Shown here piece after piece: positions 5,677-46,242 of a DNA stretch of 64,000 nt (its first letter is position 1; every line of letters begins with the position of its first letter). Where the stretch lies: positions 5,742,639 to 5,806,638 of the forward strand of contig CM026562.1 of NCBI GenBank assembly GCA_015143295.1, written 5' to 3'. The notes under the pieces are model-generated. The model saw nothing but the letters and a program-made list of their open reading frames with translations. It made no database searches and was not told where the DNA came from. The position numbers and the translations under genes are program-made. This DNA comes from Tetracentron sinense (Eukaryota > Streptophyta > Magnoliopsida > Trochodendrales > Trochodendraceae).

Positions 5677-5746
5677 CTTGTAGAAACAACTGGTCCCAAA
5701 GGGGCATGTCCCATTTCCAAAATCAAAATACCTGCAATCAATAGAT
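5677..5746 (-). CDS. MKRN: Makorin exon 4: C-terminal CCCH finger
   Basis: This 70-nt exon lies 31.6 kb downstream of exon 3. On the minus strand it follows the acceptor CTTTCCTTTGGCAG and completes the split Arg codon of exon 3. It reads [20 protein letters not shown] then FYK before a GTATGT donor. Plant makorins have almost the same words directly after KAKLR ([20 protein letters not shown] in Arabidopsis, from memory). Phase, splice sites and family match agree, so this is the true continuation of the gene and not a stray copy. The final finger histidine is expected to be the first residue of the next exon, which is not in the window. The exon sits between transposon-filled introns but shows no decay. 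Confidence 0.88.
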
Positions 5747-6105
5747 CTGCCAAAGGAAAGATGCGTTAGTCCAAAACAAATAACTACTATGCAGATTGAC
5801 ATCCCCTTACTTATCTACCTTTATGTTTATTAATCCAAACGTTAATTATTGATATTCAACTTAATGTCACAATAAAACTATTTGAATCCCAATGATGCCA
5901 ACGAATAAATATTCCAGAACAAAATCAGGTGGGTTTTCTATAAAGAAAAGTAGTACCAGTATGCCAATGTAAGGAAGAGAATAGAAACCAGTCAGAAAAA
6001 ACCACATAGTACAGATCTTTTGCACAACTAGGAGTATAAGTGCTGGGACCAGCATAATATGGAGTATTAGACTCAGCAAAACCAGAGAAAGATCAAGTTT
6101 ACTAA
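5747..6105. other. Makorin intron 3, exon-proximal unique sequence
   Basis: The sequence between exon 4 and the first MITE has no recognised repeat or gene. A minus-strand open frame of 92 codons here is hydrophobic and matches nothing I know; I treat it as chance. Confidence 0.5.
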
Positions 6106-6493
6106 GAGCATTCCTAGTAGCCTCACCAAAATGACTTTTGGTCATTTTGGTGAGCCAGATAGCTAAAAAGTGCTAAATAATGCCCCCAGCAACCTCACCA
6201 ATTTAACGTTTTCGGTTTGGTGAGTGTGCAGTACTCACCAACTTTGGTGAGTCACTGTACACTCACCAAAGTTAAATCTCTCTCTTTCCCTCCTTTGTGG
6301 GCCCAAACAAATAAAATAAAGGTTTCTCTCTCTTTTTTTTTGTGGAAGTGACACAAATGATAAAATAATGAGAGTTTTGGCTATTTTGGTGAGGCTGCTG
6401 GGAGTGTTTTAAAAAAGTGGCTCACCAACATGACTTTTTGTGAGTTTTGGCTATTTTGGTGAGTAAAATTTGGTGAGGCTTCTAGGAATGCTC
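6106..6493. mobile_element. PIF/Harbinger (Tourist-like) MITE
   Basis: The ends are GAGCATTCCTAGTAGCCTC and, inverted, GAGCATTCCTAGAAGCCTC. The element is flanked by TAA on both sides (6103-6105 and 6494-6496), the 3-bp target of PIF/Harbinger. The 388-bp body repeats TTTGGTGAG words in both orientations and has no coding part. The GAGCAT start is shared with widespread plant Tourist families. Confidence 0.8.
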
Positions 6494-6547
6494 TAATATA
6501 CTTAATTTAAAAAATTTAGTATTTCAATATGATAGTATACACCAAAG

Positions 6548-7342
6548 TTTTTATAACCGGACCGGCCGCCGAACCAGTTGGGTGGTCGGTTCCCAGTTCG
6601 GCCGGTTCAACCGGTTAAACAATAAGCCCTTATGAGTAAGCTCCTTCCTTATGTAGTATTTCTGACTTTTTATCAAGCAACTACAGAGTATCCAGGAGAA
6701 CATTAATTTAGAGAAGTTGGAACAGAAACAAACCACAAAAAGAAAAAATTTACTCAAAACCCATTACCAAGTAAACATCAAAAGTGAAGGAAGAAGAGGA
6801 ATTAAAAAGCCGTAACTGCTTCTCTATCTAACCAGTTTGAGTAAAATCCCTCACCTTATTGCTTCTCTCTCTAACCAATCCGAATAAAAACCCTCACATT
6901 ACCTGATCAAAGCAAAGTTTCTTGCAAAGAGGAAATTTGGAATCGTAGGGGATTTGCAAGGGAAGATGGAGGGGTTTACAAGGGAAGATGGAGGAGTTCT
7001 CTTGTACGGTGGAGCTGAAGAGGAGATATCCTTCCCCGTGAAAAGAAAATGAATGAATGATTTAGGTATAAAGACAAGGCCATGGGGTGCGACTCCTTCA
7101 GAATTTTAGGGTTTATATGAATCATGGGTTGCTTAAGAAACACGAATTACTATTTATTAGACTTTGTCACGAAACCGGCGGTTATTAGAATCGGTCACCA
7201 GTTAAACCGGCCAATTATCCCGGTTTTTTCCTTTTTTGCCAGTTTTTAATATTGAACGGTTTTGGAGACTTTGAGGATCAGATGGGGGACATGCTCCTGA
7301 TTTTACCCGTTCAACCAGCCAGTCCATTTCTTAAAACACTAA
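6548..7342. mobile_element. Non-autonomous DNA element with ACCGG-rich ends (probable hAT)
   Basis: The left end (AACCGGACCGGCCG near 6556) and the right end, inverted (AATGGACTGGCTGG near 7331), are similar and rich in ACCGG/CCGGTT words. Such words also occur at 7170-7235. The outer boundaries and target duplication are not clear, so limits are approximate. No transposase was seen. Confidence 0.4.
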
Positions 7343-7427
7343 ACACACAAATAAAGCACAAAGAAAATTACCAAGTGATGAGAAAACATAATAATTTAAT
7401 TATTAGAAGAGTACACACTAATAATAG

Positions 7428-7545
7428 CAAGTATTACAAGACAGTCTAAACCTCTAAAACATTGTTTTCAAGGTAAGCCACTTTTAAATAGAAAGTATTA
7501 CAAGACAATCTAAACCTCTAAAACATTGTTTTCAAGGTAAGCCGC
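7428..7545. repeat. 54-bp direct duplication
   Basis: The block AAGTATTACAAGACAGTC through AAGGTAAGCCAC at about 7430-7483 is repeated almost exactly at 7492-7544, with a spacer of about 9 bp. Only one or two bases differ, so the duplication is recent compared with its surroundings. Confidence 0.75.
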
Positions 7546-7625
7546 TTAAAAGCAAGCTCTTTGCAACCTAGATATGAGGTATTGCCAAGGCCTACTTACC
7601 ATCAAGAATTGTCACCCTCGATTCC

Positions 7626-8896
7626 CATGGTGTCAAAAATCGACTCAATTCCGCTGAAGTTAACCGAATTGAGTCGACTTCCGCGGTGTCCGAAGTGAAA
7701 TGCAATTGTAATGTAAAAATACTGGGCTTCGTGGTAAACTTCGGTGAACTTCAGTAAACTTCAATAAACTTTGACCGAAACAGAAGAAAAAAAATGTTGA
7801 GAAAATATAGAACTTCGGTGGAAGTTAACCAAAGTGTACAGAAAAAGTCTCTAAATTAAAGGACTTTTAAGTTTTAACTTAAAAGGGTAATGCTAATTTC
7901 AATCGCTTTAAACTTACTTTCTTCATAAGGAAAGACATGTGTCCCTAGCATTAACCTTATTATAAATATAATTAGTTTTAAAAGAGAGTGCTGTTAGTAT
8001 TAACCTTATTATAAAGTATAATTTTATTATTAGAGTGTGGTTAGCAATAACCTTATCATGAATTATAATTTTATTATTCTAATAATTTTGTTATTAGTAT
8101 TGCTTAAAATTATAAAATTATATAAATTCCTAATAGTTTTCATAAATTAAAAATTATTTAACTACACATCTCCTCTTCACATATTGATTCAGTCATGTAA
8201 AAGCAATGAGCTCATCAATTGCATATTAAAATAGGTTTAGAAACTAAATTAAATTTCAATTATTTATCAATTTTAATGTGAATTCATAAGTTTTTCACGT
8301 TTCTAAAACAATTAACATGGATAATCATTGAAAAATAAAGAGAATACATTCCCCTTCACATTACAAAAATGATAAAATATAGTTTAAAAAATTTGAAAAT
8401 ATAAAGAACTCATCAATTACAGATTGAAATAGGTTTAGAAACTAAATTGAATTTCAATTATTTATCAACTTTAATGTGAATTCATAAGTTTTTCAGGTTT
8501 CTAAAACAATTAATATGGATAATCATTGGAAAAAAAAAATAATACATATCTCTTCACTTGACAAAGAAGATAAAATATAGTTAAAAAAATTTGACAATAT
8601 AAAGAAATATCATGAAGAAAACAGCACAGACAAGTAGACAACAACGCATGTCACTTAACATGATTCTCACATTTGAGTACTACATGCTTGCATCAGTAAT
8701 ATAATGAATTTTAGATGTGTAGTTATGCTTAAGTATTAAATTTTTAAAGTTTCATCTTAGATTTTCAATGTTTCCTTCAGGTTCCTGGACTTCTTTAATT
8801 TTTACATAACTTCCTTGAACTTCCTTAAACTTCCTCAAAACGTGTCAACTTCCTTAGCTACCGAAGTTTATACCGAAATTGAAGTTTAATACCTTG
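7626..8896. mobile_element. hAT non-autonomous element (1.27 kb)
   Basis: The left end is CATGGTGTCAAA and the right end, inverted, CAAGGTATTAAA. The flanks are TCGATTCC (7618-7625) and CCGATTCC (8897-8904), an 8-bp target duplication with one change, typical of hAT. The subterminal parts are rich in AACTTC/GAAGTT words. The interior holds two about 200-bp tandem units (about 8205-8405 and 8406-8607). No transposase was seen. Confidence 0.7.
8205..8607. repeat. Tandem pair of ~200-bp units in the hAT element
   Basis: Two adjacent copies both begin near CTCATCAATT and contain TAGGTTTAGAAACTAAATT and GGATAATCATTG. They differ by scattered substitutions and short indels and look about 88% identical by eye. 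Confidence 0.7.
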
Positions 8897-9059
8897 CCGA
8901 TTCCCCTCACATAGGAGGCCTATACAGAAGTAGTAAAAAAAAGGGGGTTAGTAGAAAGAGGAAGAAGAAAAAGAATAGAAAGAAGAAGAGAAAAGATGGA
9001 TAGAGGGATTAGAGAGATAGTGATTCACTTCTCTCTTCTCCTTTACCAACCCCTGAATG

Positions 9060-9480
9060 AGGATCCTTAGGCACAGTAACTCACATCTACCATGTGCCAT
9101 TGATCAAAACTCTATCTAATTTTTCTTGGAAGACTTGGAACTAGGATGGAAAGATAAAAGCGATCTTCCAAGAAGGTTATACTTTCAACCATATTTATCG
9201 AGAAGCTAATTCAGTAGCTGATGGTTTGGCTAATATTGGGTGCGAAAGTATGACTTCAGGAATTCTTACTTCTTATAATATTGTTCTCAGGAATATCAAA
9301 TCTCTTATCCATATGGATAAAATAAGTATAGGGGGTCTTAGAAATGTAATTTAATTTTTCTTTGCGTTTGTAGGGGTAAGGTTTTATGTCCCCCCCCCCC
9401 CCAATTTGCTTTTTATTAATAAAACGGGTAGGAGTCTGTCAAACCCCCCTCTCCCTCTGAGAGGATTTATATTTTTTTAA
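9060..9480 (+). mobile_element. LINE 3'-end relic with RNase H
   Basis: The plus strand encodes HIYREANSVADGLANIGCE at about 9190-9246, the conserved C-terminal end of the RNase H domain carried by many plant L1 elements. The frame stays open to a stop near 9352. A 3' UTR follows with a C-run at 9391-9402 and TTATTAATAAAAC. Everything upstream of RNase H is missing, so the copy is 5'-truncated. It is a different family from the LINE that starts at about 9478. Confidence 0.7.
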
Positions 9481-9494
9481 AAAGCAACCACAAC

Positions 9495-10220
9495 TTGTTT
9501 TGTGCTACGCCAATATGTACAACCACACTGGTTTTCTCAGATTTGATGCCGACCACCTTGGAGGAGAAGCAGATCGACAAAGGCTCCAGGAGAAATCTTT
9601 TTTCAGATCCTCTTGAAAAAGGTCTCGAAGGGGAGTTGGGGACGCAGAGAGGTCGGCCAGTCCAGCAAGAAGCGGATTCAGGAGGGGAGAGGAGTTTAGA
9701 TCTGGATTTGGGGTTGGAACCAGGGGTTGGTGGAGGAACAGCAGATTTGAGAGTGATGCCGAGGATCTCTGAAGATGTAGCTTTTGGGAATCATGACCAT
9801 GTGGGTCGTCAGTGGGTCGACGGGGAAGCAGAGAGGGAGAGCCAGAGGGACGGAAATTTAGAGGGGGGGATATTACAGCCAGATTGCCAGCCAACGGTGG
9901 GGTCGAGCTTAGCTGTGCTACCGCAGATGCAACAGGAGGCGGTTGCGGAGTGGGTGATGTCTAATATGGTAGGCGTGGGGACAATTCTGGGGCTTTCTAC
10001 TGGAGGTCAGGAAGCTAAAACCAGCAGGATTTGTAGATCCACAGAAGAAGAGGACAAGGGGCACAGTGGAAGAAATATTGTTAAGCAGAGCAATGGTCGT
10101 AGAGGAGCCTCGGCAATGGAGATGAGAAGACTTCACTGCAGCATCAATTACGATAGAGCAAAGGGGAAAGGGAGTTTAGCCAGGTCGAAATCAGCTCGGG
10201 ACCTTCAGGTGTTAAGATGA
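9495..10220 (+). CDS. LINE ORF1 C-terminal part (5'-truncated)
   Basis: This 241-codon frame sits directly before ORF2 and ends at TGA 10218-10220, overlapping the ORF2 ATG by one ATGA motif. The protein is hydrophilic and low in structure. It ends in a basic stretch (LHCSINYDRAKGKG, then SLARSKSARDLQVLR) like the C-terminal tails of plant L1 ORF1 proteins. The DUF4283 and zinc-knuckle domains expected upstream are absent, so this is the ORF1 tail of a 5'-truncated insertion and the ATG at 9495 is probably not the original start. ORF1 proteins bind LINE RNA. Confidence 0.6.
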   Translation: MFCATPICTTTLVFSDLMPTTLEEKQIDKGSRRNLFSDPLEKGLEGELGTQRGRPVQQEADSGGERSLDLDLGLEPGVGGGTADLRVMPRISEDVAFGNHDHVGRQWVDGEAERESQRDGNLEGGILQPDCQPTVGSSLAVLPQMQQEAVAEWVMSNMVGVGTILGLSTGGQEAKTSRICRSTEEEDKGHSGRNIVKQSNGRRGASAMEMRRLHCSINYDRAKGKGSLARSKSARDLQVLR

Positions 10221-13200
10221 TTGGGTTCTCTATTTTTTTGTGGAATATAAGAGGTCTGGGGCGAGTGGAGAAGCGGGTGGCGGTTAAAAGGTTCGTGCGG
10301 ACCAAGCACCCATCGATTTTATGCATTCAAGAAACTAAACTGGCAGGCATCGAGGAGTTTCATATTAGAGATTTGTGGGGGTGCCAGGCTCCCGGTTGGA
10401 TTGAGCTCCCGTCGGTGGGGGCCTCGGGAGGTGTTCTGCTCTTGTGGGATTCTTCGAGGGTGGAGGTGTTGGAATCCGAAGTGAACGCTTTTTCGATTTC
10501 TATCTTATGCTGTCTGATTGGGGAGGATTTTCTTTGGGTTTTCTCTGGGGTGTACGGGCCGGTTGAGAGGTCGACAGACATCGATTTCTGGACAGAGCTG
10601 GATGATGTCAGCGTGCGTTGGGGAAAACCATGGTGTCTGGGAGGGGACTTCAATAGTATTCGCTTTACTTCGGAGAGGAAGGGAGGTTGCTCGCTCTCTC
10701 CTAAGATGCGGAGGTTTGGGGACTTTGTCTTCCGCCACGGTCTGATAGATTACCCTTTGAGAGGTACTCTATTCACATGGTCTCAGCCGGGGATCAATGG
10801 TCAAGCGAGCCGTATTGACCGGTTTCTAGTCGACCAAGCTTGGGAGGCTCACTTCCCAAACGCGATTCAGTCATCTCTTCCGAGGCCTATATCTGATCAT
10901 GTCCCAATCTTGTTAGAGATGGGGAGTTTTAGGGGGGGTCCTAGCCTGTTTAGATTTGAGAATATGTGGTTGGAGGATGAGCGGTTTCAGGACCTAATAG
11001 CCGAGGTGTGGGGCCAAACTAGGGGGTGGGGATCGGCTAGCACTCGGTTTGGACTTAAACTCAAAACTCTGAAAGCTCGATTGAAAGTTTGGAATAAGGA
11101 GGTTTTCGGTAATGTCCAAGTTCGCCTCTCCGGTTTACTAAGAGAGATAGAGATTTTGGATAGTTGGGCGGAAGTGCGAGATCTTTCCCCTTCGGAGTCT
11201 CGGGAGAGAGAAAGCAAGAAGATGGACTATATATCGACTTTAAAGTTGGAAGAGATAAGTTGGAAGCAAAAAGCTAGGACTCGGTGGCTTAAGGAGGGAG
11301 ATAGAAACACAAACTTTTTTCATAGAATGGCTAATTATAACCGCAAAAGGAATTTCATCTCTAAGCTGAAGGTAAACGGGAGGTGGGTGGAGGATCAAGG
11401 TGCGATTGAAGATTGTGTTATATCCTATTATAAAGGTTTGTATCGGGAGAGGGAGAGGTGGAGGCCTAAGCTTGATGGACTCGACTTTGATGGCATTTCT
11501 CATCTTCAGAGGGAGGCTCTTGAGAGTCCTTTCGAGGAGGAGGAGGTGCTTGACGCGATTCGGTGTTTAGAGAGTGACAAAGCTCCTGGTCCAGACGGCT
11601 TTACTATTGAGTTCTTCAGGAGATGTTGGGGAATCGTGGGGCAAGACTTCATGGAGGTGATGGCGGAGTTTTACGATACAGGGCATTTTGATCGAGTATT
11701 GAATAGCACGTTCATTGCTTTAATTCCTAAGAAGGAGGGGGCGGTGGAGCTTACAGACTTTAGACCCATTAGTCTGGTCAGCAGTACTTATAAAATCTTA
11801 TCTAAAGTGTTGTCAAGCCGCCTTAAGAAGGTTATGTCTTCCCTCATCTCTCCTAGCCAGAGTGCCTTTGTTGGAGGGCGCCAAATATTAGATGGGATCC
11901 TCATTGCCAATGAGTGCATTGATTCCAGGGTGAGAGCCAAAGAGCCAGGCATTCTTTGCAAGGTCGATTTGGAGAAGGCCTATGACCATGTAAACTGGGC
12001 TTTTTTGGATTACATTCTAGACAGAATGGGTTTTGGGAGGCGATGGAGGCAATGGATGTGGACTTGTGTGTCATCTGTTTCATTCTCCATTTTGATCAAT
12101 GGTAGCTCTGTGGGGTATTTTCCTAGCTCTAGGGGGTTGAGGCAAGGGGACCCCCTCTCACCGTTCCTCTTTGTGATTGTCTCTGAAGCGTTAGGTAGAA
12201 TGTTGTTGAAAGCTGAGGGGACTTTTTTCGAAGGTTTCAAGATTGGTCCATCTGGTTTGCGGATTTCTCATCTCCAATTTGTGGATGATACCCTCATTTT
12301 CTGTCGGGCGTCGAGGCGGGACCTTCTTAACATCAGATGTCTTCTCAGGTGCTTTGAGGCGGTGTCGGGGCTGCGGGTTAATCTTGCCAAATCAGAGATT
12401 CTGAGGGTGGGGGAGGTACCCATAATGGAGCACCTCGCTATTTGCCTTAGGTGTGGTGTGGGTTCCCTCCCTTCAGTTTATTTAGGCTTTCCTTTGGGAG
12501 CTAAATATAAGGCGAGATCAGTTTGGAATCCTGTAGTAGATCGGATTGTTCGGCGTTTGTCCGGTTGGAGGGCGTCCTATTTATCAAAAGGAGGGAAGTT
12601 GACGTTGATTAGAAGTACACTGCATGGTATTCCCACCTTCTTATTGTCGTCCCTTACTATTCCTCGTTCGGTGGCTCTTACCATTGAAAAGTTGCAAAGG
12701 GATTTTCTTTGGAATGATAGGGAGGGCAGCGCGAAGTACCATTTAGTGGAGTGGGCTCAGTTGTGCAGGCCAAAGGAGAATGGGGGATTGAATTTCAAAC
12801 CGATCACCCAGGTGAATAAAGCTTTACTTGGTAAGTGGGTGTGGAGGTTTGGGGTTGATAGAGACAGTTTGTGGAGGCAGGTGATTGTAGCCAAGTATGG
12901 GGAGTCTTCTTGTTGGACCCCTAGGGAGGTTAGGGGTTCCCATGGGCATAGCCTTTGGAAGGGCATTATGGCGACTGCAGATTTGGTGGTGCCGTTCTTC
13001 AGGTTCCAGGCGGGGAGAGGTTCGGAAATCAGGTTTTGGAAGGATATATGGTTAGGCTCCTCTCGTCTTTCGGACGACTTTGGTACTCTTTTTGCTCTTT
13101 CTATTGACAGGGATGCTCTCGTGGAGAGGTATTACGAGGAAGGGCCAAACGGTGTAGTTTGGTGTCCAAGGCTACGGCGCGACCTCAATGACTGGGAAAT

Positions 13201-13834
13201 CATAGAATTATCTCGGCTATTGGAGCGACTGTCTTCGTACCCTATATGCCCTGCGGTTCGGGATAGGAGGTCGTGGTATAGGAGTATTAATGGGATGTTC
13301 TCGGTTCGGCGGTTGTTCCAGTCTTTGCGTTCTTACCCGGTTGGATCTTATCCTTGGAGAGTGGTGTGGAATCCTGTCATTCCGTCCAAGGTGTCCTTTT
13401 TCATTTGGACGGCGTCGTTGGATAAGATCCTAACTGGGGATCATTTGAAACATAGGGGGTGGCAGTTGGCGAATAGATGCTATATGTGCTTTCAAGAGGA
13501 AGAAACAACGGCTCATTTGCTTTTGCATTGTCCTCTGGCGTCGGAAGTGTGGAGTTTCTTCCTATCTCGTATGGGACTGGCGTGGGTTGTTCCTTTTTCA
13601 CTACATGATCTCCTTGATTGTTGGCAGCGGGATAGGGGGGTGGGTGTTTGGAAGGAAGTTTGGGGAGCTCTCCCTGGGGCCATTGTGTGGGAGCTCTGGA
13701 AGGAGAGAAACCGTAGAGTCTTTGATGAGTCCTCAACCACAGTGCCTAGTTTGTGTGCCCGAATCAGAAGGTTAGTTTTAGAGTGGGTTGGGGTCAATAG
13801 GTTGAGGGAGGAAATCCTGGATATTCTGTATTAG
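10217..13834 (+). CDS. LINE (L1-type) ORF2: endonuclease / reverse transcriptase
   Basis: This is an uninterrupted 1205-aa ORF2. An APE-type endonuclease fills residues 1 to about 230: WNIRGLG at 9, QETK near 40, GGDFNSIR near 140, SDHVPILLE near 220. It nicks the target DNA. Reverse transcriptase follows: KAPGPDGFTIEFF, FRPISL, KVDLEKAYDHVNW, GLRQGDPLSPFLF, and the catalytic FVDD at 688-691. It primes cDNA at the nick. A zinc-binding region lies near 1088-1110 (CYMC, then HLLLHC). There is no RNase H after it, and the TAG is at 13832-13834. The start overlaps the ORF1 stop as ATGA. With an intact frame and an A-tail it is the youngest-looking LINE here, but lost 5' sequence means it cannot start its own transcription. 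Confidence 0.93.
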   Translation: MIGFSIFLWNIRGLGRVEKRVAVKRFVRTKHPSILCIQETKLAGIEEFHIRDLWGCQAPGWIELPSVGASGGVLLLWDSSRVEVLESEVNAFSISILCCLIGEDFLWVFSGVYGPVERSTDIDFWTELDDVSVRWGKPWCLGGDFNSIRFTSERKGGCSLSPKMRRFGDFVFRHGLIDYPLRGTLFTWSQPGINGQASRIDRFLVDQAWEAHFPNAIQSSLPRPISDHVPILLEMGSFRGGPSLFRFENMWLEDERFQDLIAEVWGQTRGWGSASTRFGLKLKTLKARLKVWNKEVFGNVQVRLSGLLREIEILDSWAEVRDLSPSESRERESKKMDYISTLKLEEISWKQKARTRWLKEGDRNTNFFHRMANYNRKRNFISKLKVNGRWVEDQGAIEDCVISYYKGLYRERERWRPKLDGLDFDGISHLQREALESPFEEEEVLDAIRCLESDKAPGPDGFTIEFFRRCWGIVGQDFMEVMAEFYDTGHFDRVLNSTFIALIPKKEGAVELTDFRPISLVSSTYKILSKVLSSRLKKVMSSLISPSQSAFVGGRQILDGILIANECIDSRVRAKEPGILCKVDLEKAYDHVNWAFLDYILDRMGFGRRWRQWMWTCVSSVSFSILINGSSVGYFPSSRGLRQGDPLSPFLFVIVSEALGRMLLKAEGTFFEGFKIGPSGLRISHLQFVDDTLIFCRASRRDLLNIRCLLRCFEAVSGLRVNLAKSEILRVGEVPIMEHLAICLRCGVGSLPSVYLGFPLGAKYKARSVWNPVVDRIVRRLSGWRASYLSKGGKLTLIRSTLHGIPTFLLSSLTIPRSVALTIEKLQRDFLWNDREGSAKYHLVEWAQLCRPKENGGLNFKPITQVNKALLGKWVWRFGVDRDSLWRQVIVAKYGESSCWTPREVRGSHGHSLWKGIMATADLVVPFFRFQAGRGSEIRFWKDIWLGSSRLSDDFGTLFALSIDRDALVERYYEEGPNGVVWCPRLRRDLNDWEIIELSRLLERLSSYPICPAVRDRRSWYRSINGMFSVRRLFQSLRSYPVGSYPWRVVWNPVIPSKVSFFIWTASLDKILTGDHLKHRGWQLANRCYMCFQEEETTAHLLLHCPLASEVWSFFLSRMGLAWVVPFSLHDLLDCWQRDRGVGVWKEVWGALPGAIVWELWKERNRRVFDESSTTVPSLCARIRRLVLEWVGVNRLREEILDILY

Positions 13835-14530
13835 TCATTCTAGTCGTCGGGGGGAGGAGTTGGTTCAAGGTTTTGTAGTAATGTCGGGGTCGAGTTTACT
13901 AGCTTGTAAACTTGAGGGTCCCTTGTCTTTAGTTGTTTTCTTGCCTTTCGTTTAATAAATTGAGGTATTGATCAAAAAAAAAAAAAAAATCGGATGTAGA
14001 TTTTTTATCATCTCTAGCATCTGCCTAGTATATATCTGTATAGGCCTCAACTCACATATGCCCATGTTTTCTGAATAAGAGTCCTCTACTTCGAGATGAC
14101 TTGAGATACCTCAAAATCATGTATATTGCTTCCAAGTGTGTGGACTTGGATGCATGCATAAACCTACTCACTATACTCACAACATAGGCAATATCAGGCC
14201 TCATGAGAGAGAGAGAGAGAGATTAGTTACCCCACTAATCGCTGAAAACTACTATCTTATAGAAGAACCTCATCCATCTCATCCACTTTGTGATTCTGTT
14301 CAATTGGGGTGTCAGCCGGTTTGGCCCCAAGATATTCATTATGAGATCTAGCAACCTCTATTCCCAAGTACTTAAGAAGACCTAGATCCTTGATCTCAAA
14401 CTCACTTGCTAGGTTCTTCTTCGGTTGTTCAATCTTTATCATATTTCTTCCACTGACAACTATATCATCTAAATACACGATAAGGACTCTAGTGTCATCC
14501 TTAGTGCGCCTAACAAATAAGGTAAGATCA

Positions 14531-16386
14531 TGTAGCGATTCTGAATTTCTGATTTAAATGCTAAGGGTATTTATGTAAATTCCTAGTTTAGGGGTATTTG
14601 GTAAATATCTCTAAAAGTCGTTTGGCCACGAGAACTAATTTTCTTAAGTGGAATAATTAAAAATGAGAATAATACACTAAGCGTGTAACTTAGGCTTGTA
14701 ATCAAACACAATTAGTCAAAGTAATTGGTAAAAGCACAATAAAGAGGTTATAGTATAAATAACTAAAGTTAACCTAATCTCTCATTATTTTACAAAACCT
14801 AAACTAAGAGAAGACTTTGGAGGAAGAAGAAGAGGCTAAGGTTTGAGATCTCTTGAGCAAGTTTGAAGAGTAGGAATTGGAGCTTGAGGATCTAGATTCT
14901 CGCCAACGAAAGGTCGAACTCGTGAAGCAAACCCTTTTGGGTGGTTTTCCTTTTCTAGAAATCCTAAATCTATAGGGTTGAGGCAAGTGAACACTCCTTT
15001 AGGCTTTAAATTCATGTTATTACTGTTTTTAATGTTATATTCAGTGTAATAAATGCCTAGAATCGATCTAGGAAGAAATGGGGTTGGTTTGGGGGTTTTT
15101 GGGTGAAAATGGGGTTTTACCCCGAAATCTGTTCGCAATCCGTTCGAACGGTCTGTGAACCATTGAAACAGTGAAGTTTATGGTTGATCACTCATGCTAT
15201 TTTAAAAAGTCCAGAATCTTGAACCGTTCGAACGATCGCATGACCATTCGAACAGTTATGCACTGTCACACATTTCAAAGTCCAGAACTGTCAACCGTTC
15301 GAACGATCATGCTTGTTTTTCATTGAAACATAGAAACTATGCATGTTTAGGATCCCTTCTATCATAATCATACTTTTTCCTTATTTTATAAATTGATACA
15401 CATGTTTTAACTCTATTACATTCATATTGTTCTCATCTCATATTTTGTAAATTTGATGATTAACTGTTGTGCATGCTTGTGTGAACTGCTTAAAATGTTT
15501 AGACCTTACATAGCTTAGTTAGATCCGTCTTGCTATGGTAATATAGGACACTATAGACCTATAGCAGGGAGGATATAGCTAACTTACCTTGGTTAATAAT
15601 TTGCAGTTAGGTCAGTCTTGCTATGTGTGGTATGGGATGTCGTGGCGGAGAAGATATAGCACCATTATTATTGTCTACATCATTATAATTATTAAATTAA
15701 TAAGTAACTTAACCTTGGGTGGACGGTGTACGATTCTATCGGTATCCTTGAGGTGTTGTCTAAGGCAGCCAAAAGAGGAACAGGTGTGTGATTCCATCGG
15801 TATCCGTGAGGAGTTGTCGAGGGCCGCCAACAAAGAAACAGGTGTGAGATCTTAATCGTCTTGTGAGGCATCGCTAGGGGGCTGCTATAAAGGAATAGGT
15901 GTGTGAATTCAGAGGCGTTGCGAAGGGCCGCCAGATGTGAACCAAGTAACTCAAAATGAAGAATATTAATTCATTTGAGTTGCCATTAAATTGCATATTA
16001 AGAAAAATGTAATCATAACTCGTGATTGCATGTGTTGCATGTGTGAATGTATTTATCTTTTTGGGCTTAGTGCTCACTCTTGTCATGTTGATACTTTTCA
16101 AGAGATTCCTGGAGGTCTTCTGGGGCTCTTGAGGAGCTGAGTAACTAAGAGAATATTCCTTTTGTCACTTTTGAGAGTGAATGACTGTAGAGAGGAACTT
16201 TGTTGAGAATTTAGTCGCACTTCATGTTTTGTTTAAACATTATAATTATGCTTGTTATGTTTATACATCTGGAATGATTTTGTATGCTTATGAAATTCAT
16301 TCACTATTGGGATTTGTCCTATGTTCAGGCTTCGAAACCTATACAAATATAAGGTAAATTGTGTCTAAGGGTTTCAGGGCGTGACA
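14531..16386 (+). mobile_element. Gypsy-type solo LTR
   Basis: The segment starts TGTAGCGATT and ends GGGCGTGACA, with GATCA on both sides (14526-14530 and 16387-16391), a perfect 5-bp target duplication. It splits the reverse transcriptase of the Copia fossil. It holds a TATA-like TATAAATA near 14754, a cluster of TTCGAA palindromes (15120-15320) and a tandem array (15715-15950). There is no coding part. It is an LTR left after recombination between two LTRs. Confidence 0.85.
15715..15950 (+). repeat. Tandem ~65-bp units inside the solo LTR
   Basis: Three to four diverged units share GATTC-TATCGGTATCC, GTGAGG-GTTGTC, GGCCGCCA and AGGAACAGGTGTG. They are best preserved at 15720-15850. Confidence 0.6.
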
Positions 16387-18394
16387 GATCAGCTTGACTT
16401 TGTAAGTATCCCCTTCTCTTTACAACAGCACTGAACCTTTCAAACCAGGATCTAGGAGGCTACATATAACACATTCTTCATCTTGCAAGCCAATCTTTAC
16501 CCCCTTCAAGTTGAAATCTTGGAAGAGGGGACATATAAACTTCTTTATTCAAAGTACCATGGAGAAAAACATTTTTGACATTGAGTTGGTAAAATGGACA
16601 CGACTAATTTGATGTCAATGATAAGATTACATGAATTGAATTCATCTTTGCTACCAGGGCAAAAGTTTCCTGGTAATCAATTCCATAAATTTGAGTGTAG
16701 CCCTTGGCTACCAACCTTGCCTTATACCTCTCAACTAATCCATCTGCTTTGCATTTAATCGTGAATACTCATTTACACCCGATAAGAATTTTTTCTTAAG
16801 GAAGATCTACCATCTCCCAAGTATTATTTTTGTTTAGTTCATTTATCTCTACTAGCATTACTTCCCTCCACATTAGTTGTTTTAGAGCATCGGTGACAGA
16901 AGATGGAATGAAAGTGGATAATAGTGAAGACTGAAGACACAAATGACTTGTAAGATGGAGATAACGCTTTATAGGATATAAAGTTAGCAATGGGATGTTG
17001 AGTACACGACTTCTTACATTCCTGAGAGCAATAGGAATACTAGATTCATCAACAGGCACTAAAGGCAGAGAAAAGTACTTACAAGAAGGGTTTTACTTGG
17101 ATCATCCGAAGAGATGATTTGGTCTGAGTTCGTGTTTGCTTTTGCCTTTCTTTGGTAGACTTGAATCTCTCCTTATTTTCTAACATTCTCCTCTTGAGCA
17201 CTAGTAACAGTCATCAAGGGCCAATGATGAGGGAGATGAAACCAAAATTGGCAATGGAATCATTCTCTCTTCGCACTCACTCTCCCCTTGAAGAGAGGAA
17301 GGATTGGAATATAAGGAAACAAACTCAAAGAATGTAATATCCATGGAGACAAATTTCTTTCAAGAAAGAAAATAATAAAATTTGTATTACCTATGATGAG
17401 AGGAATACCCAAGGAAGATATATTTAGATCCTTGAGGTCTAACTTAGTTCTGTTGGGACCCAAGATATGCATAAAACAAACACCACCAAATACTTTGAGG
17501 GGAATCAGAAACAAAGAACTCTCAGGTTTTAAGACCTGAGAGGGAGACTGAAAGTGCAAAACACGAGGTGAATCGACTAATAAGAAAAACATCAGTGAGG
17601 ACAGTTTCAGCCCAAAATTTTTTTAGAACATTACACTGTAATAGAAGAACATGAGTTACCTCCAATAGATGAAGAATTTTCCTTTCAGCAACATTAATCG
17701 GTTGATGGGTGTATGGACAAGAGTATTGATGTTCAATCCCATTTGTAGTCAAATATTCTGTTAACCCCCATTTATATACCCCCCATTTATATATTCTCCC
17801 CTTGATCAGTTCAAAGAATCTTGGTCATTTTTTCAAATTGTGTCTGAATTAACATATGGAATTGTTTAAAATAGTATATACCTCATCCTTTAAATTAATG
17901 AGATAAATTCATGTATATTTAGAATAATCATCAACAAAACTCACAAAATAACGATAACCAGAGATGGATGTAATAGGTGAAGGTCCCCAAACATCAATGT
18001 GAATTATATTAAACATAACAAAAGTTATATTAAAGCTAGGAGAAAAAGAAGCACGATGATGCTTTGCAAGTTCACACACTTCACAACGAAGATCAAAAAT
18101 AGAGAGAGAAGCAAACAAGTCAAAAAACATAATTTTGAAGTACTGAAAAAAACATGACCATGACAGGCATGCCAACACGTAAGACTAAAATGCTCGAGGA
18201 ACAGTAGGAGTTGCATCCAACAAATAGAAGCTAGCGGCTTCACAACCCGTACCAATTGTCTTCCTCGTTACCAAGTCCTGAAAAATACTGTAAGGGAAGA
18301 AAGTGACAGTACAATTCAATTTTGTCAGAAAACTAACAAAAAGAATATTTAATGCAAAATCGGGAACATGGAGAATATAGCTAAAGATAGGTGG

Positions 18395-31640: not shown

Positions 31641-31840
31641 ATCCGATTGATGGAGTGACCAAGACAAATTTGCTGCAAGTGAGAACAAACCGGGTTCATC
31701 TCGACAACTGAAGCAAATGTCTCCAGGTAATCTACTTCATACGTTTGAGTAAACTCTTTAGTGACCAACCTTACCTTGTAATCTGTCCACTGTCATATTA
31801 GCTTTATGCTTCACTACGTACACCCACTCATAGTGACAAA

Positions 31841-35348: not shown

Positions 35349-35761
35349 CATAGTTACCAAAGCGAGAAGCGCAAACGAGAAGCAAAGAGAAAGCGAGAAG
35401 CAGGAAACGAGGCTCAAAAAAACTTTAGGAAAAGGGAAGCGAGAAATGAGATATAAGCTCCTCATTCCCATTATGTTATTATGGGTAGCTCTACCTTCGA
35501 TTTTATCTTACATCAGATTTTTCTGAAAAATCTAGTGCCTAAGGTTCCAAACTGACAATACTTGCTTAAAGTCTACATCCTAGGCTATAGATTCTGGTCT
35601 ACCCCATCACTTCACACAAATTGTTCCCTTTAACTACTAAATGGGACGTGATGGAAGCGAGTCTATCTGAGGAAGCGAGCTTCCTAGGAAGCGAGTTTGT
35701 CCGAGGAAGCGAGTCCAGAAAACGAGCTTACCACCCTGTACATAGCTTCCCTGCAACCATG
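35349..35761. mobile_element. hAT MITE with AAGCGAG subterminal repeats
   Basis: The ends are CATAGTTACCAAAGCG and, inverted, CATGGTTGCAGGGAAG. GAAATATC flanks it on both sides (35341-35348 and 35762-35769), a perfect 8-bp duplication. AAGCGAG occurs many times near both ends, a pattern typical of transposase-binding repeats. It belongs to the same family as the split copy at 1-4690. Confidence 0.8.
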
Positions 35762-36825
35762 GAAATATCAATGATAATTCAAACCATGCCCACTTGTCAT
35801 ATGAGGCATCAGATGGACTAGGCTCCACTACTCTTCCATTAAAATACCCAATCTTGCCCCCGACTACCGATAAACGTCTTCTTAGATTGTGACCATTCAA
35901 CTTCACAGTTGTAATCTACAAACTAGGATTCTCCGGTAGAGAAACCACATAAGATGGAAACATTGGGCTATTATTGTTTCATGAATTTTCTCCCATACCA
36001 TTAAATCCTAACATGCTGTCAATTTTGGAACTATACGTCGATACTAATAAAACTGAGCCCCGAGCCTTCTGATCACCCAAAAATACTCAAACTGATAAAA
36101 AAAAACAAGGCTGGTTTATAAAAAACAGCCCACAAAACACTAATACTAATCTCTACATATCAGTGAGTGTTCAGACCATAGGACTTCACAGTCCGAATGT
36201 GCTAAAAAAAACAAGAGGGCGGTATACATGCCCTAGAAAAAAGCTTGTGAATTCCTCAATTCTTAACCAAACTGCATAAAACTTGTTTAAATCTTCTCCA
36301 AAAATATGGAATAGATCAAGCTATATCAAATTGGCTCATCAAAAAACACCTCTTAAGAAATCCAACCATCCGATTGATCGAAAAAAAAAAATTTCCCCAG
36401 ATTCAATTGAACAGGCATAACACCATAAAAACATCTCAAACAATTCTGTAAAAATAACAAAAAAAAGCACAAAAACAATTTCCTCTTACCAATAGTATTT
36501 TTCTGATCTGGGGGTTGGTCCATTCGACTGCTGATGCCAGCCCTGGTGTTGCGTTCTTTTGGCCTTTTGGAAGTCTGGAACCCTTATTGATGATCTTGTA
36601 ATGTCTACAACTACACTATGATACCAAGTAGAAATCTAACCCTAGATGCAAGAATGGAGGAAGAGGAAAACACGTGATATTCTGGAGAATCAACGAGTGT
36701 TAGACACCAATGTGGTGTACACTTTATTAATAAATAATGTGGAGAAAAATACACTCACTAGAGTGTAAAGCATATATACATTAATCAAAAACATATTATG
36801 GACTTATAGATTTAGGCCCATAACA

Positions 36826-37381
36826 GAAAATATCAAAAGTGAAAACTAAACAATATTGTCAAGTATTACAGTTTACAAAACAAGAGCATATTTGTAGATA
36901 CAATGAATAAAGACAAGGAAATGATGGGTTATGCTACACTTTGGCAATTACCCATTCAGTCAAAGATAGGAGGCATTTTCCAAGGAAAGGGGAGAGACAT
37001 TGTGGTATTATCTTGGGACTTGACCCATGGAGAAATGGATCCTGATGGGAAAGAGGCTCTTTCTTTACTAAAGGGACTCAAACTTCTTCTTTTATTTACT
37101 CTAGCTGGTAACCAATTACGGTGATCATAGTTACCCAATTGGTTATAAGTTACCCAATTGGGTAACCAATTGCGATGGCTGGTCTCAAAGATGGCTGGTA
37201 ACTATAATTAAATCTGGCCAAATTTGATTAGACTGAAAACATCGTATCTATGTACATTTCCTACAGAAATAGAATCTCTGTCAAGAACTATTTCAAGAAA
37301 ATATCGAAGCTAGGGTAAAGAACACGTGAACTAGAACCCTGCGGTCTGATTAATAAACAGACTTGTAAGATGGTAGCATAC
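36826..37381. other. Makorin intron 3, exon-proximal sequence
   Basis: Between the Copia fossil and exon 3 there is unique sequence with a 73-codon plus-strand frame (36903-37121) that I do not recognise. A cluster of ACCAATT/AATTGGT words includes the perfect palindrome GTTACCCAATTGGGTAAC at 37149-37166. No second makorin exon was found here. Confidence 0.5.
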
Positions 37382-38181
37382 CTGAGTTTCGCTTTGTAGC
37401 CATCAATAATCTTCTGCTTTTCTTCTTTCGTGGAATACCAAATGACACTTGGAATGACAAAGTATGAAAGCTTGCGACATATTGGGCAGGCTCTCAGTGC
37501 AGTATTGACATCAATGCCAGAGGTTGGGGAACTACTACGCCAATTCCTAATACATGATATACAGAATGGATGATCACATTCTGATAGCAATCCAAACTTC
37601 CGTTCAGCCATTGTGAACTTCGAAAGAACACGATCTAGGCACACACTGCACTCTATTTCTTGATTACGTTTCAATGCCTCAAGGTGTTTTTTCATTGTCT
37701 CACATGCTCTTATGTGCTCCTCTCTTTCATCAGGTCTATAAGGATGCAAGCAATGTTTACTACAGGTGGGACATAAGTCCCCATGAATATGTGGGCATCT
37801 TTCCCCATGAGGACAATTACCAGCAGCAGCATTTGAACAAATAGGCAGGTCAGCAGGTCCGACAATTGTAGAGTCAGCAGCATCCTCGCCAACTAAGAAA
37901 TTATGATAACAAGAATCTTGATTCCATGCTAGTCTAGTGGGAGGAAAGAAAGATCTACTCAAAGCTGAAAGCTCTGCAGGAACAGTCAGGACTGGAGTGC
38001 ATACCCTACTTGTGGCAATTCTAGAAGGACAAGTGACTGGAACAGAATTCGAAGTTAGATGATGGTGAGAATTTGTTGATGAAGATGATGAGAGAGAACT
38101 CTGTGAACGAGAAGCTTTAACATGTTCATATCTGCATCGACTGCCGTACAAGCAGACTCCTTTTTGATAGAAGGTGCATAA
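37382..38181 (-). CDS. MKRN: Makorin exon 3: CCCH fingers, makorin Cys-His block, RING
   Basis: This 800-nt exon is the body of a makorin E3 ubiquitin ligase. It opens with the second CCCH finger ([19 protein letters not shown]). A Ser/His-rich linker of about 80 residues follows. A third CCCH finger comes next ([19 protein letters not shown]), then the makorin Cys-His block ([11 protein letters not shown], ending EEHIRAC). A C3HC4 RING runs from CSVCLD through [13 protein letters not shown] to CPICR. The RING recruits an E2 and transfers ubiquitin, while the CCCH fingers bind RNA in studied makorins. The acceptor is TCATCACAG at the high end and the donor GTATGC at 37376-37381. Reading past the donor adds about 30 unrelated residues before a stop, so the splice is needed. 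All zinc ligands are present, so the gene looks functional. Confidence 0.93.
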
Positions 38182-38280
38182 CTGTGATGATAAAACACCA
38201 AGAAGCTATAGTTAGGAAACACATATTGCAGCCAGTAAAAGTTGATGGCGGAAAAGTCAACTAGAATTAGATTTTTTTAC

Positions 38281-38368
38281 AGTATTTGCTTGGTCCTTCC
38301 AATCATGTGAAAACTCACACTGCTCCCCTTTTAGACATGCTCCATTTGCATAGAACTTGCAAAGAACC
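38281..38368 (-). CDS. MKRN: Makorin exon 2: first CCCH zinc finger
   Basis: This 88-nt exon encodes residues 4-33, [17 protein letters not shown] and on to the finger histidine in EFSHD. The spacing is C-x7-C-x5-C-x3-H, a CCCH finger of the RNA-binding type found in pairs at makorin N-termini. The acceptor is TTCCTTCAG at the high end and the donor is GTAAAA at 38275-38280. The exon ends in phase 0 and joins exon 3 over a 99-bp intron. Too short to stand out as an ORF, it was found by reading upstream of exon 3. In the family these fingers bind RNA; that role is not shown here. Confidence 0.85.
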
Positions 38369-38830: not shown

Positions 38831-41800
38831 CATGGTTCAAAATATCCAGAGTATCTATTTGTTTCATATAAAACATATCGTTTTTAGCTTTACCGATACA
38901 ATACCGCCATGTAGTGAATAAATTCCAACAGTTTTGGACGTATCGTGGTGCATCGGTTGTTCTGATATGGGACATAAATCCCAAAATAAAGGCACAACGA
39001 ATAGATGCGGGGAAAAGAGATCATTGTTTTTCAAATTCGGCATTTGACAGTCAATGTTAAAAGATTTATTACTTTCTAGTTTCTACTCAAATGTCGGATC
39101 AAGAATCTGTCAGATGTGCCCAAAAGAAATTTTTGAGATTTACAACAGCTATTTCACGAAGCTTTTCAAGAATTTAGTTTTTGGGACGTCAAAATTGAGT
39201 TTTCATCTTGGCTGTAAAATCAGTGAAGAAATTAGGAATATATTAGGTATTTTAAAATTATGTTTAAGTTAATTTAGATGTAGGGTTCACATTAGTTGTT
39301 TAGCTTATAAGTTAGCTTTTAGGGTTTTCTTTTTATTATAAATAGTTGCTATGGGAGCATTGTTAGGGAGATTTTTGAATTTTTGAATGAGAATTGACCT
39401 TTGGCTTTTCTTTGATTTCCTTCGTGAATTTTTGGATTGCTTGGATTAGCACCTTGTAGGAGGGTTTGTTCTAGGTTTACTCTAAGAAACTTAGAATTTG
39501 ACAGTGATCAAAGATTTTATATTTTGTACCTCCCAATTGTAGGATTGTCCTACATCACATATGTATCGTGGCATATCGAAACATGAGTTAAACATGTGTA
39601 TTTCAACTTCTAAAATCCACTCTTTTATTGTCTATATTGACTTTTGTCTCCAAAACCCACACTCTATCCCTAAAAACGAACGGTCCATTCCTTTCATTCA
39701 ATCAAAAACAAGATCAATCTCCGTAGAGATCGAATCAAATACCTTTTTTCACTACTCATTAAGGGCTCCAACTTCTTTATTTTCCATTCTGAGGGTGTTA
39801 AATCACTTGAAATAGTTACAAAGATGCTTGTAGATCATATATCTATGGATTTGTAGCCATATCCATATATCTATGAAGTTCATCAAGGAGAATAGACCTC
39901 ACATATTTCATTTTCTTTTTTAAATCCAAAAACATAATACATTTTTCATTTTATGCCATTTATATTACTAATTTTTAAATCCAACCCTAATTTTGAAAAA
40001 ATATATTTTCTATGTTAATAAAAATTAATATTCCGATAGGTGAAATTATTGATTTTAACCTCAATACTAAATATTATTGTTTGACATAATTACATGGCAT
40101 TAATCTATGGATGATCTATTAGACCCATTGGCGATGAGGCTAATAGTAGCATTAGTGATTTCGAACCCGCACGTAATTCAATGAGGTATTGATGTACCCA
40201 CTAAGTAAACACCATTTATGTATATTTGTATTTCATAATAACGATATGTATTAGTTAACTTATAATTTGATGCATGAGTATCTATGGACGAGCATAGCAG
40301 TGGTTCTAACTTCTAACCATATAGGTCAACTGATAGGTGGCCGGCTAACATGGGGAGGACATCACAGGAGGCCCATGAGCCCATATGAGCCCCCATGCAT
40401 GATAAGGGCCCAATAGGGTTTTAGCCCATGGGTTCTTAGAGCTATTTATAGTCTTTTTTTAAATAGTTGGTTGCTAGTTAAAATTCAAATATTGTTCAAT
40501 GTAGTCAAGGCGTCGCCTAGGCGATTTTGGGCCTGCGTCGCCTAGGTGCCCCTCTAGGCGGGCGATCCTAGTAAAAAAAAAAATTTTTTTTTTTTTTGCT
40601 TAAAAAAAATCCAAAATATCTCAATAAATAAAAAAATAATTTAAAAAAATGTAATGAAGAAGTAATAAGATTTTAAATCGTTTTTTTCACTAAAAATATC
40701 AATTTTTTTTACTAAAAATATCGTTTTCGAAGCAATCTGGGCCTAATAGGCCCAGATTGCGGACGCACTTCGTGCGTCACAGGGGGGCGCTTCCCCCCTG
40801 CTACCCCCGGAGCAATCGTAGGGGGGCTCTGCCTAATATTATACATGGACAGTGACACAAATTTGGGTATTTGGCTCAGATTTTGAAGTGTTTAATACTC
40901 CACTATGTCAACATGTCTTTGGTTATGTGATGAATGATTGTAATAGACTTTTTATTTTATATTTTTGTGGAATGTGGGTGTGGAGTTTTGATCTTTTGGA
41001 TGTTATATATAATAATATATATACGTGATATATATATATATATATTTATATTAAATTTATCGCCTAGGCCTAGCCGGGGCTAATCGCCTAGGCATCGCCT
41101 AGACGCCTTGACTACACTGATATTGTTAGGATTTTATTGTTTTAGGAAACCAAGTTAGAAGAAAGTATAAGAGTTTTGTTGTTTTAGAAATTTTATTAGA
41201 ATAGGATGTCTATTTTGGAACCTGTCTATTTATAGGTAGCAATGTTTTGTAATAGATTATAGTTTTTGATTAATTAAAGAGAATTGATACTTGATTCAAG
41301 TTGATTGCTGCCGTTGGGTTGATTGTTTCATTGTTTTTCAAGTTTTGGATCAAAATCTACTTTTACAAACCCAAGCCAACTAGCAAGGTTAGTAATTTCA
41401 ATAATTTTGATCAAATTACAGCTTGTTTCCCCTTCTTATAACTGTCACACCTCTCTATTGGGGTCCTATTGCTTTGATTTTAATTCCTGCTATTGATTTT
41501 GGCATAAACTAGTTTTCCCCAAATTGATAATTTCGGCCCTACTGAAACTCAAGGAAGTTATTCAATTAAACCCTAGAGTTCAATGAAATTCCTCAATTGA
41601 ACCTTCGGTTTTGCTGATTGATCAATCATTGAAGTGAATTTGATCTGAGTTCCATTTTTAGAGCCAAACCCTAAAAGTAGATAGTAATTGAGATTTTACA
41701 GCTTTTCCAAAAATTTCAAACACGCCTCTAATTCTTTGAATCTCCAATTGACTGATCAATACTTGTCGGATTACATTGAGATTTGGGCATTTGGATTTGT

Positions 41801-44059: not shown

Positions 44060-45301
44060 TCTCTTTCTACCTTACAATGAAATTATGAAATAAAATACAA
44101 TAGAATAAGATAACCATTCTGGAAGCTTTTCTAAATAATGATATCCCCGAGGAGTGGAATTCTTGAAATACTCTAAGAAGATCAGATTTGATAAAGACCC
44201 GGCGCCTCTTATAAATTTTAATTGAGAATCCATCAGGCCCCGTGCTTTATCTCCCTTCATACCTGCAATCACCCTCAAAATTCCTTCTTCCACAAACGGA
44301 TTTTCAAGCCTATCTCTAAGCTCCTCAGAGATGCTATCAAAAGAAACCCAATCCAGTTTTGGCCTATAACCCTGATTTTCCTAATACAAATGATCATAAA
44401 AAGCCACAATTGACTCCCTAATTTCCTTTTCACTATTCTTCCAAAACTCACCCACCTTTAGCCATGAGATATGGCTGACTTTGCTTCTATGATTCGCGAC
44501 TTTGTGAAAGAACTTTTAGTCCAATCTCCTTAAGTCATTGAATTCTTAGTTTTTGCCTCCAACTAATCTCTTCACATTTCAAAAGATGTTGAAATCCCTT
44601 TAGCAGATGAAAGACGACCCACTCCCTCACTCAAGTCAAGACCTTCAATGGCCTCTAAAATCTTTCTTTTATTCTCCTTAACGCTACCAAACACTTCATT
44701 TGCTCCAAGTTTTAAGCCAAGCATTTACAGTTTTTAATTTGAAGCCAGAGATGGTATTGGTACGATCCCAAAAATTGGATTCTTGCCGAACCTCCTCCAC
44801 CAATAAAAAATCAAGTTGTTCCAACTACATGTTTTCAAACTTGAAAAGCCTAGGACCTTTAAGGGGGCAATCCAAGAGATCGTAACAAAAGATAAATCGC
44901 TCAAATTCTCTCATGTTACGAGATATTGGTTCCGCCCTGGATTTTTCATGCACGAATCTTACACAAATGAAATCCCCCCGATGCATTGTACAAAAACTCA
45001 GCAAGTCAACTCGAAACTTGGCCGAGTCAACTCGCCTAAAAAACTCGATCTATCTCTTTTACCCAAGTGATTGAGGACATAGTTGTCTTTTTTATTATTA
45101 TAAAATCACATTCGACCCATATCAAAGTCTCATTCGAGCCCTAAACTGAGGAAAAGAAGGAGAAGGAGGAGGAGAAAGCTAAAAATAATGATTTGAAGCT
45201 TGCATTACAATTACTTTAGGACTATTTTTAATTTGTAAGTTTATAATAGAATTGTAGGAAGTAGAAATTATTTTTCAATAGAAATTTTTTATCTATGTTG
45301 G

Positions 45302-45336
<35 letters not shown>

Positions 45337-45524
45337 CCGAGTCAGCCGAGTCGAGTTTTTTTTCGAGTTTTCCGATTTACTCAACCCGGCTAACTTTCGA
45401 GTCGAGTCAAGTTTTCAAGTTTTTGAACTATGCCCCTTTGCACCACAAGACTTTCCACCAAACACTCACTTGTTTAGCTCCTGCCAGAAAGCGTCCCCAA
45501 ATTCGCCCGCGTACGAAACCTTTA
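44060..45524 (-). mobile_element. Decayed LINE: endonuclease and RT N-terminal parts
   Basis: The minus strand encodes pieces of an L1 ORF2. Endonuclease remnants lie at 45430-45520. GPRLFKFENM follows at about 44830-44860, then the linker, then YRPKLDWVSFDSISEELRD and NPFVEEGILRVIAGMKGDKA (44240-44370). The frame shifts near 44190, from the phase of NLIFLEYFKNS to that of DLLRVFQEFHSSGI, and there are several stops upstream, so it is a relic. The catalytic RT core and 3' end are missing. It lies in makorin intron 1 and is interrupted by one MITE and cut by another. Confidence 0.7.
44990..45430. mobile_element. MITE with ACTCGA-rich inverted ends
   Basis: The left 60 bp (CAAAAACTC, GTCAACTCG, CTTGGCCGAGTC) and the right 80 bp, inverted (TCAAAAACTTG, GACTCGACTCGAAAG, GCCGGGTTGAG), are imperfect inverted repeats. 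A (TA)n run lies at 45306-45333. It splits the LINE relic. The target duplication is unclear (perhaps ATGCAT/ATGCCC). Confidence 0.6.
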
Positions 45525-45693
45525 CCCTATGTTTGGTTGCCGAGAAAATAGGTAAAAACATGGAAAAGAAAAGAAAATTTTGAATTTCTAATACAATTTT
45601 TAGTTGAGTTTCTAATACAATTTTTATTAGAAATTCAAAATTTTCTTTTCTTTTCCATATTTTTACCTATTTTCTCGACAACCAAACATAGCC
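45525..45693. mobile_element. Fold-back Tourist-like MITE (169 bp)
   Basis: The element is almost a perfect hairpin. About 68 bp at the left starting CCCTATGTTTGGTTGCCGAG matches the inverted right end starting GGCTATGTTTGGTTGTCGAG with few mismatches. TTA flanks both sides (45522-45524 and 45694-45696), as for PIF/Harbinger. The small divergence between the arms suggests a recent origin. Confidence 0.88.
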
Positions 45694-46231
45694 TTAGTCT
45701 TTACATCATTATTATAGTGTGCCCTCCCCTCCAGATGTAACGAAGCTAATGCCACATTGTGGGAATCTTCAGTCGGGTTGAAATAGAAGAATTACTCAAC
45801 TACTCAACTCAACTCAATACGCCATTGAAATGAGGAAAATTGATTTTGGTGGATCGTATTTGCACATTTCAGCTCAATAGGAAAATTCTCCATCTGATAT
45901 GCGAGAGATTTCAGGATTTGAAGAAAAAATAAAAATAATAAAAATAAAGAAAGAAACAAAAGATAACGCAACTGTCCCAGAAATCAAAATAGCATCAGAA
46001 ATTTCCAATAATTCATCCGAAACTCATAGTGATAGCAGGCATATAAATTATAAAGAATAAAACAATCAAAATGATTGAAATACGTAAACTAGATATCGTC
46101 AAATAAGAATCAAATCCTTAAATACAGGTCAGGTCATTAGGTAGAAACACTAGATAAGGAATTGAGCACCGTTTCAGCTAGAGAAATCAAAGAACGATCT
46201 AATCAAATAAATTAAAGAAGGAAAAAATTAC

Positions 46232-46242
46232 CTCATTGACAT
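46232..46242 (-). CDS. MKRN: Makorin exon 1 coding part (11 nt)
   Basis: Read on the minus strand this is ATGTCAATGAG followed directly by a GTAATT donor. It encodes M-S-M and the first two bases of an Arg codon, which the G at the start of exon 2 (38368) completes. The result, MSMRVLCKFY, matches the start of plant makorins (for example MSDRILCKF in Arabidopsis, from memory). The start was chosen because the phase fits exon 2 exactly and no in-frame ATG lies in exon 2 before the first finger. The intron implied is 7.86 kb. With so few coding bases the call rests on phase, donor and family N-terminus. A start in another unseen exon is possible. Confidence 0.65.

Follow-up and report, generated by a model that had tools for sequence, protein, structure and literature searches.

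A six-exon makorin gene of Tetracentron sinense with transposon-enlarged introns, and a shorter intact copy in the same genome

The stretch of DNA analysed here, which we call the window, comprises 64,000 nucleotides of the Tetracentron sinense genome (assembly GCA_015143295.1, contig CM026562.1; C12:5742639-5806638) and holds the greater part of a makorin gene lying on the minus strand. Extended beyond the window, the full model has six exons, encodes 364 residues and covers 51.0 kb from start codon to stop codon. Exons 1 to 4 lie within the window as a single open frame of 969 nt (323 residues), and exons 5 and 6, which precede window base 1, carry the makorin frame through to the stop codon. 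The five introns, the last being only 142 bp long, are all bounded by GT and AG, and no stop interrupts the 364 codons. The original prediction of four in-phase exons with proper splice sites encoding 323 residues, with 7.9 kb between exons 1 and 2 and 31.6 kb between exons 3 and 4, is exact to the base, and its picture of a gene with four exons, extending across more than 40 kb, had to be widened by the two further exons. On comparison with the genome at large (1.161 Gb in 1479 contigs), we consider it very probable that this is a single gene, an old duplicate, the third and fourth introns of which have grown by transposon insertion and which is presumably transcribed and spliced with the intronic elements silent. 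The parts of the gene are as follows (window positions unless C12 is given).

46232..46242, minus strand: exon 1, from the start codon through MSM to the second base of codon 4; a homologous exon 1 and flank are found on C7
38369..46231, minus strand: intron 1, 7863 bp, containing a degenerate LINE piece at 44171-44857
38281..38368, minus strand: exon 2, first C3H zinc finger
38182..38280, minus strand: intron 2, 99 bp
37382..38181, minus strand: exon 3, 800 bp, with the second C3H finger, a putative Cys/His region of makorin type and the RING
5747..37381, minus strand: intron 3, 31635 bp
5677..5746, minus strand: exon 4, where the C-terminal C3H finger begins
1..5676, minus strand: window part of intron 4, its first 5676 bp of 10166 bp in total
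C12:5738148-5738060, minus strand: exon 5, 89 bp, 4491-4579 bp before window base 1
C12:5737917-5737881, minus strand: exon 6, 37 bp, 4722-4758 bp before window base 1

The makorin identity originally proposed is borne out by the domains of the 323-residue product of the first four exons, in which the C3H zinc-finger families PF18345, PF18044 and PF00642 of Pfam each match two stretches above cut-off and the C3HC4 RING finger (PF00097) matches residues 211-268, likewise above cut-off. A Cys/His region preceding the RING is presumably of the makorin type, and residues 168-194 give a weak match (E=0.0068) to the solved makorin-3 piece 9p2q. The C-terminal C3H finger, read by eye, and the tail following it are encoded by exons 4-6; an approximate plant makorin tail, used as a query, found exon 4 at E=3e-11, exon 5 at E=2e-14 and the short exon 6 at E=0.13. 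The predicted protein is thus that of an ordinary-looking plant makorin of the C3H/RING E3 ubiquitin ligase family, with a presumed ligase activity.

A second intact makorin copy is located at C7:43149338-43164314, where six exons (11, 88, 797, 70, 89 and 37 bp, equal in length to those on C12 save for one codon of exon 3) encode 363 residues within 15.0 kb, exons 4-6 again specifying the C-terminal finger and tail. Most of the length of exon 3 matches this second locus at E=2.7e-144, a likeness which argues that the makorin exons are not a product of chance, and the two proteins are identical at 292 of 363 aligned residues. The introns of the C7 copy measure 7141, 113, 3463, 3015 and 153 bp. 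Both copies consequently have a long intron 1, and its 7.9 kb on C12, although correctly measured in the original prediction, is no sign of stretching peculiar to this gene. Intron 3, in contrast, is 31635 bp on C12 against 3463 bp on C7, and intron 4 is 10166 against 3015 bp: the copy-specific growth of the C12 gene sits in introns 3 and 4. Ordered matches between the copies are present in introns 1, 3 and 4. Counted outside the stretches that continue from the exons, intron 3 contains seven short same-strand matches to its C7 homologue, all collinear, with E values from 1e-12 to 7e-4.

36830..36949, minus strand: two short matches to C7, 81 and 89% identity
24013..24325, minus strand: two short matches, 68 and 76%
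7370..7581, minus strand: two short matches, 72 and 71%, overlapping each other in C7
6036..6071, minus strand: one short match, 89%

Since these matches are collinear, the 31.6 kb represents one intron enlarged by approximately 28 kb, with two main enlarged gaps, one of ~12.5 kb between 36830 and 24325 and one of ~16.4 kb between 24013 and 7581. The comparison also yields many dispersed-repeat matches off the collinear diagonal, and a transposon-like block (window 22644-21606) is present in the third introns of both copies in opposite orientations.

The very long distance between exons 3 and 4 is the sole point in favour of the notion that exons 1-3 form a gene ending in intron 3, with exon 4 part of another. 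However, the phase fits, exons 4-6 supply the rest of a makorin C-terminus, and on C7 the exons follow one another in this order within 15 kb, such that we regard two separate genes as highly improbable. Similarly remote is an assembly artefact in which scaffolding would have joined the exons of two loci. Hi-C scaffolding was indeed used for this assembly (PMC7709256), and the 1.17 Gb in 24 chromosomes differ from the 908 Mb in 19 of a second assembly, a discrepancy which the authors of the latter could not explain (PMC8810787). Nevertheless, the ordered C7 matches in introns 1, 3 and 4, together with the lack of any ambiguous base (N) both in the window and across 124 kb of joined sequence, make a mis-join or scaffolding error unlikely.

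The elements recognised in the introns of the C12 gene include two classes of retroelement, the Copia elements with long terminal repeats (LTRs) and the long interspersed nuclear elements (LINEs), accompanied by candidate hAT DNA transposons with terminal inverted repeats (TIRs) and target-site duplications (TSDs).

25210..30992, plus strand: Copia with both LTRs (~25210-25448 and 30760-30992), antisense to the gene, coding frame in pieces
13992..21045, minus strand: broken Copia in gene sense (pieces 13992-14541, 16388-18385 and 20718-21045), adjoining the LINE
31694..31780, minus strand: small Copia reverse-transcriptase fragment
10157..13989, plus strand: LINE, antisense to the gene, poly(A) ending at ~13989
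44171-44857: degenerate LINE piece in intron 1
32761..34132, no strand assigned: hAT-like candidate in intron 3, flanked by an exact 8-bp TSD, two mismatches between its 11-bp TIRs
40497..41119, no strand assigned: hAT-like candidate in intron 1, flanked by an exact 8-bp TSD, one mismatch between its 11-bp TIRs

That transposons enlarged the introns, as originally proposed, is supported by the identification of Copia and LINE elements inside an intron 3 much longer than its C7 homologue, and the inventory itself requires some revision. Where at least three Copia elements had been counted, one retains both LTRs, with an apparent 5-bp TSD (flanks read by eye) and an LTR divergence of 0.073 over 232 sites in the Kimura two-parameter model (K2P); the others amount to one broken element, to which LTR remnants at 8950-9045 and 23695-23801 (83%) may belong, and one small fragment. 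The "several LINEs" comprise one with an open ORF2 of 1225 residues (10157-13834) bearing endonuclease, reverse-transcriptase and zf-RVT domains, the degenerate piece in intron 1, and a third piece in intron 4 beyond the window. Partial copies of the first, 98-99% identical, occur on C21, C23, C19 and C7 (47 matches; 40 scored of 4769 first-look candidates), and it probably represents a recently active family. For its TSD no good upstream partner was found for the bases following the poly(A), and the 5' end is thus undefined. As to the predicted ten or so hATs, that number is not confirmed: with 11-bp TIRs, two candidates show an exact 8-bp TSD and five are obtained if one TSD mismatch is allowed, compared with means of 0.05 and 0.2, respectively, in 20 sequences simulated with matching dinucleotide composition. 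In a Pfam scan of 20 of the 81 listed window frames of at least 85 residues, seven matched at E <= 0.01, six of them to retroelement families (three of the six below the curated cut-off) and the seventh weakly to an RNase P subunit family. Heterochromatic introns that depend on IBM2/EDM2 are marked by CHG methylation and H3K9me2 and require IBM2 for the full-length transcript. Depletion of CHG and of CpG was tried as a trace of methylation and rejected as uninformative, the observed/expected ratio for CHG being 0.78 in intron 3 of C12, as against 0.95 in intron 3, 1.00 in intron 4 and 0.58 in intron 1 of C7.

Some further features of the window may be recorded here. A patch of intron 4 with higher G+C content includes positions 3143-3239 (plus strand), which match the Rfam group II catalytic intron model at 45.9 bits against a cut-off of 40 and may be a fragment of nuclear organelle DNA. 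A dispersed repeat of ~90 bp occurs in both orientations at 21312-21402, 31258-31348, 50268-50358 and 61017-61107, with many copies near the C7 makorin, and positions 8196-8606 consist of two tandem copies, 87-89% alike, of a 198-bp unit. A scan of the window for tRNA genes found none.

Whether the long copy is maintained was addressed through its divergence from the C7 copy. The nonsynonymous (dN) and synonymous (dS) divergences are 0.110 and 0.370 by NG86 (dN/dS 0.30), 0.115 and 0.344 by YN00, and 0.108 and 0.318 by LWL85, and the differences are distributed over the three codon positions as 43/37/77, a third-position excess with p=3e-5. In 4000 simulations, the probability that the frame would have stayed open since the duplication with no selection on the C12 copy was 0.0005-0.002. 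Together, the dN/dS value and the rarity of unselected open frames indicate constraint during much of the time since the duplication. The insertions, however, have a different time scale. Scaled by the dS of 0.37 between the makorin copies, the LTR divergence of 0.073 places the Copia insertion after approximately four-fifths of that time. The Copia is younger than the duplication, and so is the LINE, to judge by its partial copies of 98-99% identity. Since the Copia insertion only ~1.5 stops would be expected in an unselected frame, and 22% of simulated frames are without any; the element is therefore too young for the intact exons to prove that the gene is functional with the load it now carries. 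The original prediction, which set undecayed exons beside the prospect of a gene that still works, stands as regards the open frame, and a working gene does not follow from it.

It is in this context that the notion of a dying or truncated copy has to be weighed, according to which transcription would be cut short or weakened in intron 3 by the young Copia and LINE, the makorin function would fall to the C7 copy, and the C12 exons would look intact only for want of time to decay. Beyond the short time just considered, this notion draws on the existence of an intact copy on C7, on the degeneration of other makorin copies on C3 and C18, and on the sites in these degenerate fragments, which favour C7 as the more conserved copy. 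Against it stand the five intact GT..AG introns and the open frame of 364 codons, the antisense orientation of the two best-preserved elements, and the finding that many rice loci with heterochromatic introns are transcribed (PMC7145194). On balance we think a dying copy unlikely, though a good deal less remote than an artefact or a separate exon 4.

The origin of the pair can be traced to some extent. Because the introns are common to both copies, the duplication must have occurred at the DNA level. The dS of the pair (0.32-0.37) lies somewhat under the published concentration of paleologs near 0.5 (PMC8810787). We infer that the pair arose by whole-genome duplication. The two degenerate makorin copies, which are interrupted and carry stops (C3:42391752-42391931 and C18:25188974-25189060), would fit two rounds of genome duplication. 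Several observations nonetheless weigh against our account of a constrained duplicate with an enlarged single intron. The one C7 neighbour exon tried (CtpA-like by eye) matched only C7 itself, and thus revealed no shared gene order there, such that order common to C12 and C7 was seen only as far as 2-3 kb downstream of the gene. Weak matches are among those linking the introns, and one pair of the seven in intron 3 overlaps in C7. The dN/dS of 0.30 is a mean over two branches. Finally, where C12 and C7 differ, the degenerate fragments agree with C7 at 48 sites, with C12 at 19 and with neither at 15, a count summed over four short fragments of two degenerate copies in loose alignments, some spread over up to 1098 columns; it is suggestive only, and the C12 copy may be evolving faster.

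The account that we favour, of one old duplicate with swollen introns, would then run as follows. A DNA-level duplication would have left two intact makorin copies, after which ordinary Copia, LINE and DNA transposons, inserting and nesting within one another, would have lengthened introns 3 and 4 on C12 by ~28 kb and ~7 kb relative to C7. Transcription presumably runs across the insertions, the pre-mRNA is presumably spliced as usual, and the intronic elements would be kept silent as heterochromatin by analogy with other plant genes. A variant to which we give only limited credence is that the load has lately changed the output of the long copy, with short isoforms ending in intron 3, or with expression limited to certain tissues and dependent on intronic heterochromatin readers, such that C7 would be the main supplier. 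In either case the two copies (51 versus 15 kb) constitute a clean matched pair within the same genome, in which the effect of 36 kb of extra intron on a conserved gene is measurable.

How unusual is a 51-kb gene in this genome? As yardsticks we used the spans of conserved genes, taken as lower bounds with neighbouring matches treated as one gene and the family names as reported by the profile search. RAD50 gave five matches on C8 in gene order (22085852-22176752; profile positions 2 to 1294, with 187-1123 unmatched), a span of 90.9 kb. The RAD3-like spans are 29.7 (C4), 14.5 (C8), 13.4 (C6) and 5.6 kb (C9), the XPB-like 9.3 kb, the B-family polymerases 4.6 (C5) and 2.6 kb (C14), and the RPA1-like 8.0 (C22), 2.6 (C10), 2.2 (C15) and 1.7 kb (C4); the valS matches did not suffice to cover a gene and are not counted, nor are isolated single matches, and the bacterial PheT family model had no matches in the genome. 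One of the 12 spans thus exceeds 51 kb and ten are under 15 kb, which places the makorin gene in the upper tail, neither unmatched nor an outlier. Dozens of scattered genome matches cover only positions ~225-310 of the RPA1 profile. RPA1-like domains are carried by Helitrons, and these matches may be such elements.

The genome is 67.8% repeats, with a published mean intron of 283 bp (PMC7709256). The sister genus Trochodendron has a mean intron of 2308 bp, in a distribution which its authors deem comparable to that of other angiosperms (PMC6859433). Set against this value and against some genes spanning 15 to 91 kb in the present genome, the mean of 283 bp suggests that long introns may have been lost in annotation and be missing from the published gene set.

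Among the papers listed by a literature search made for context there was none on this makorin gene, and nothing wider is claimed from it. Within the same genome, the C7 copy resembles that on C12 in its six exons and its sequence and differs in the 3.5 and 3.0 kb of its third and fourth introns, whereas RAD50 is, likewise, a conserved gene whose matches extend across tens of kilobases, and longer still. In grapevine, in an analysis covering introns from 3 to 100 kb, large introns are rich in Copia LTR elements and LINEs and enriched in recent LTR insertions, their size being generally unrelated to gene function (Jiang and Goertzen 2011, PMC3058033). The grapevine introns are transposon-enlarged like those of the C12 makorin, yet they were mapped by expressed sequence tags, while the latter are predicted from the DNA sequence. 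Rice genes with intronic heterochromatin, regulated through OsIBM2, again carry transposons within introns, with transcript evidence on the rice side (PMC7145194). Set beside these precedents, the transposon-swollen introns of the makorin gene are an ordinary case of a phenomenon known in plants.

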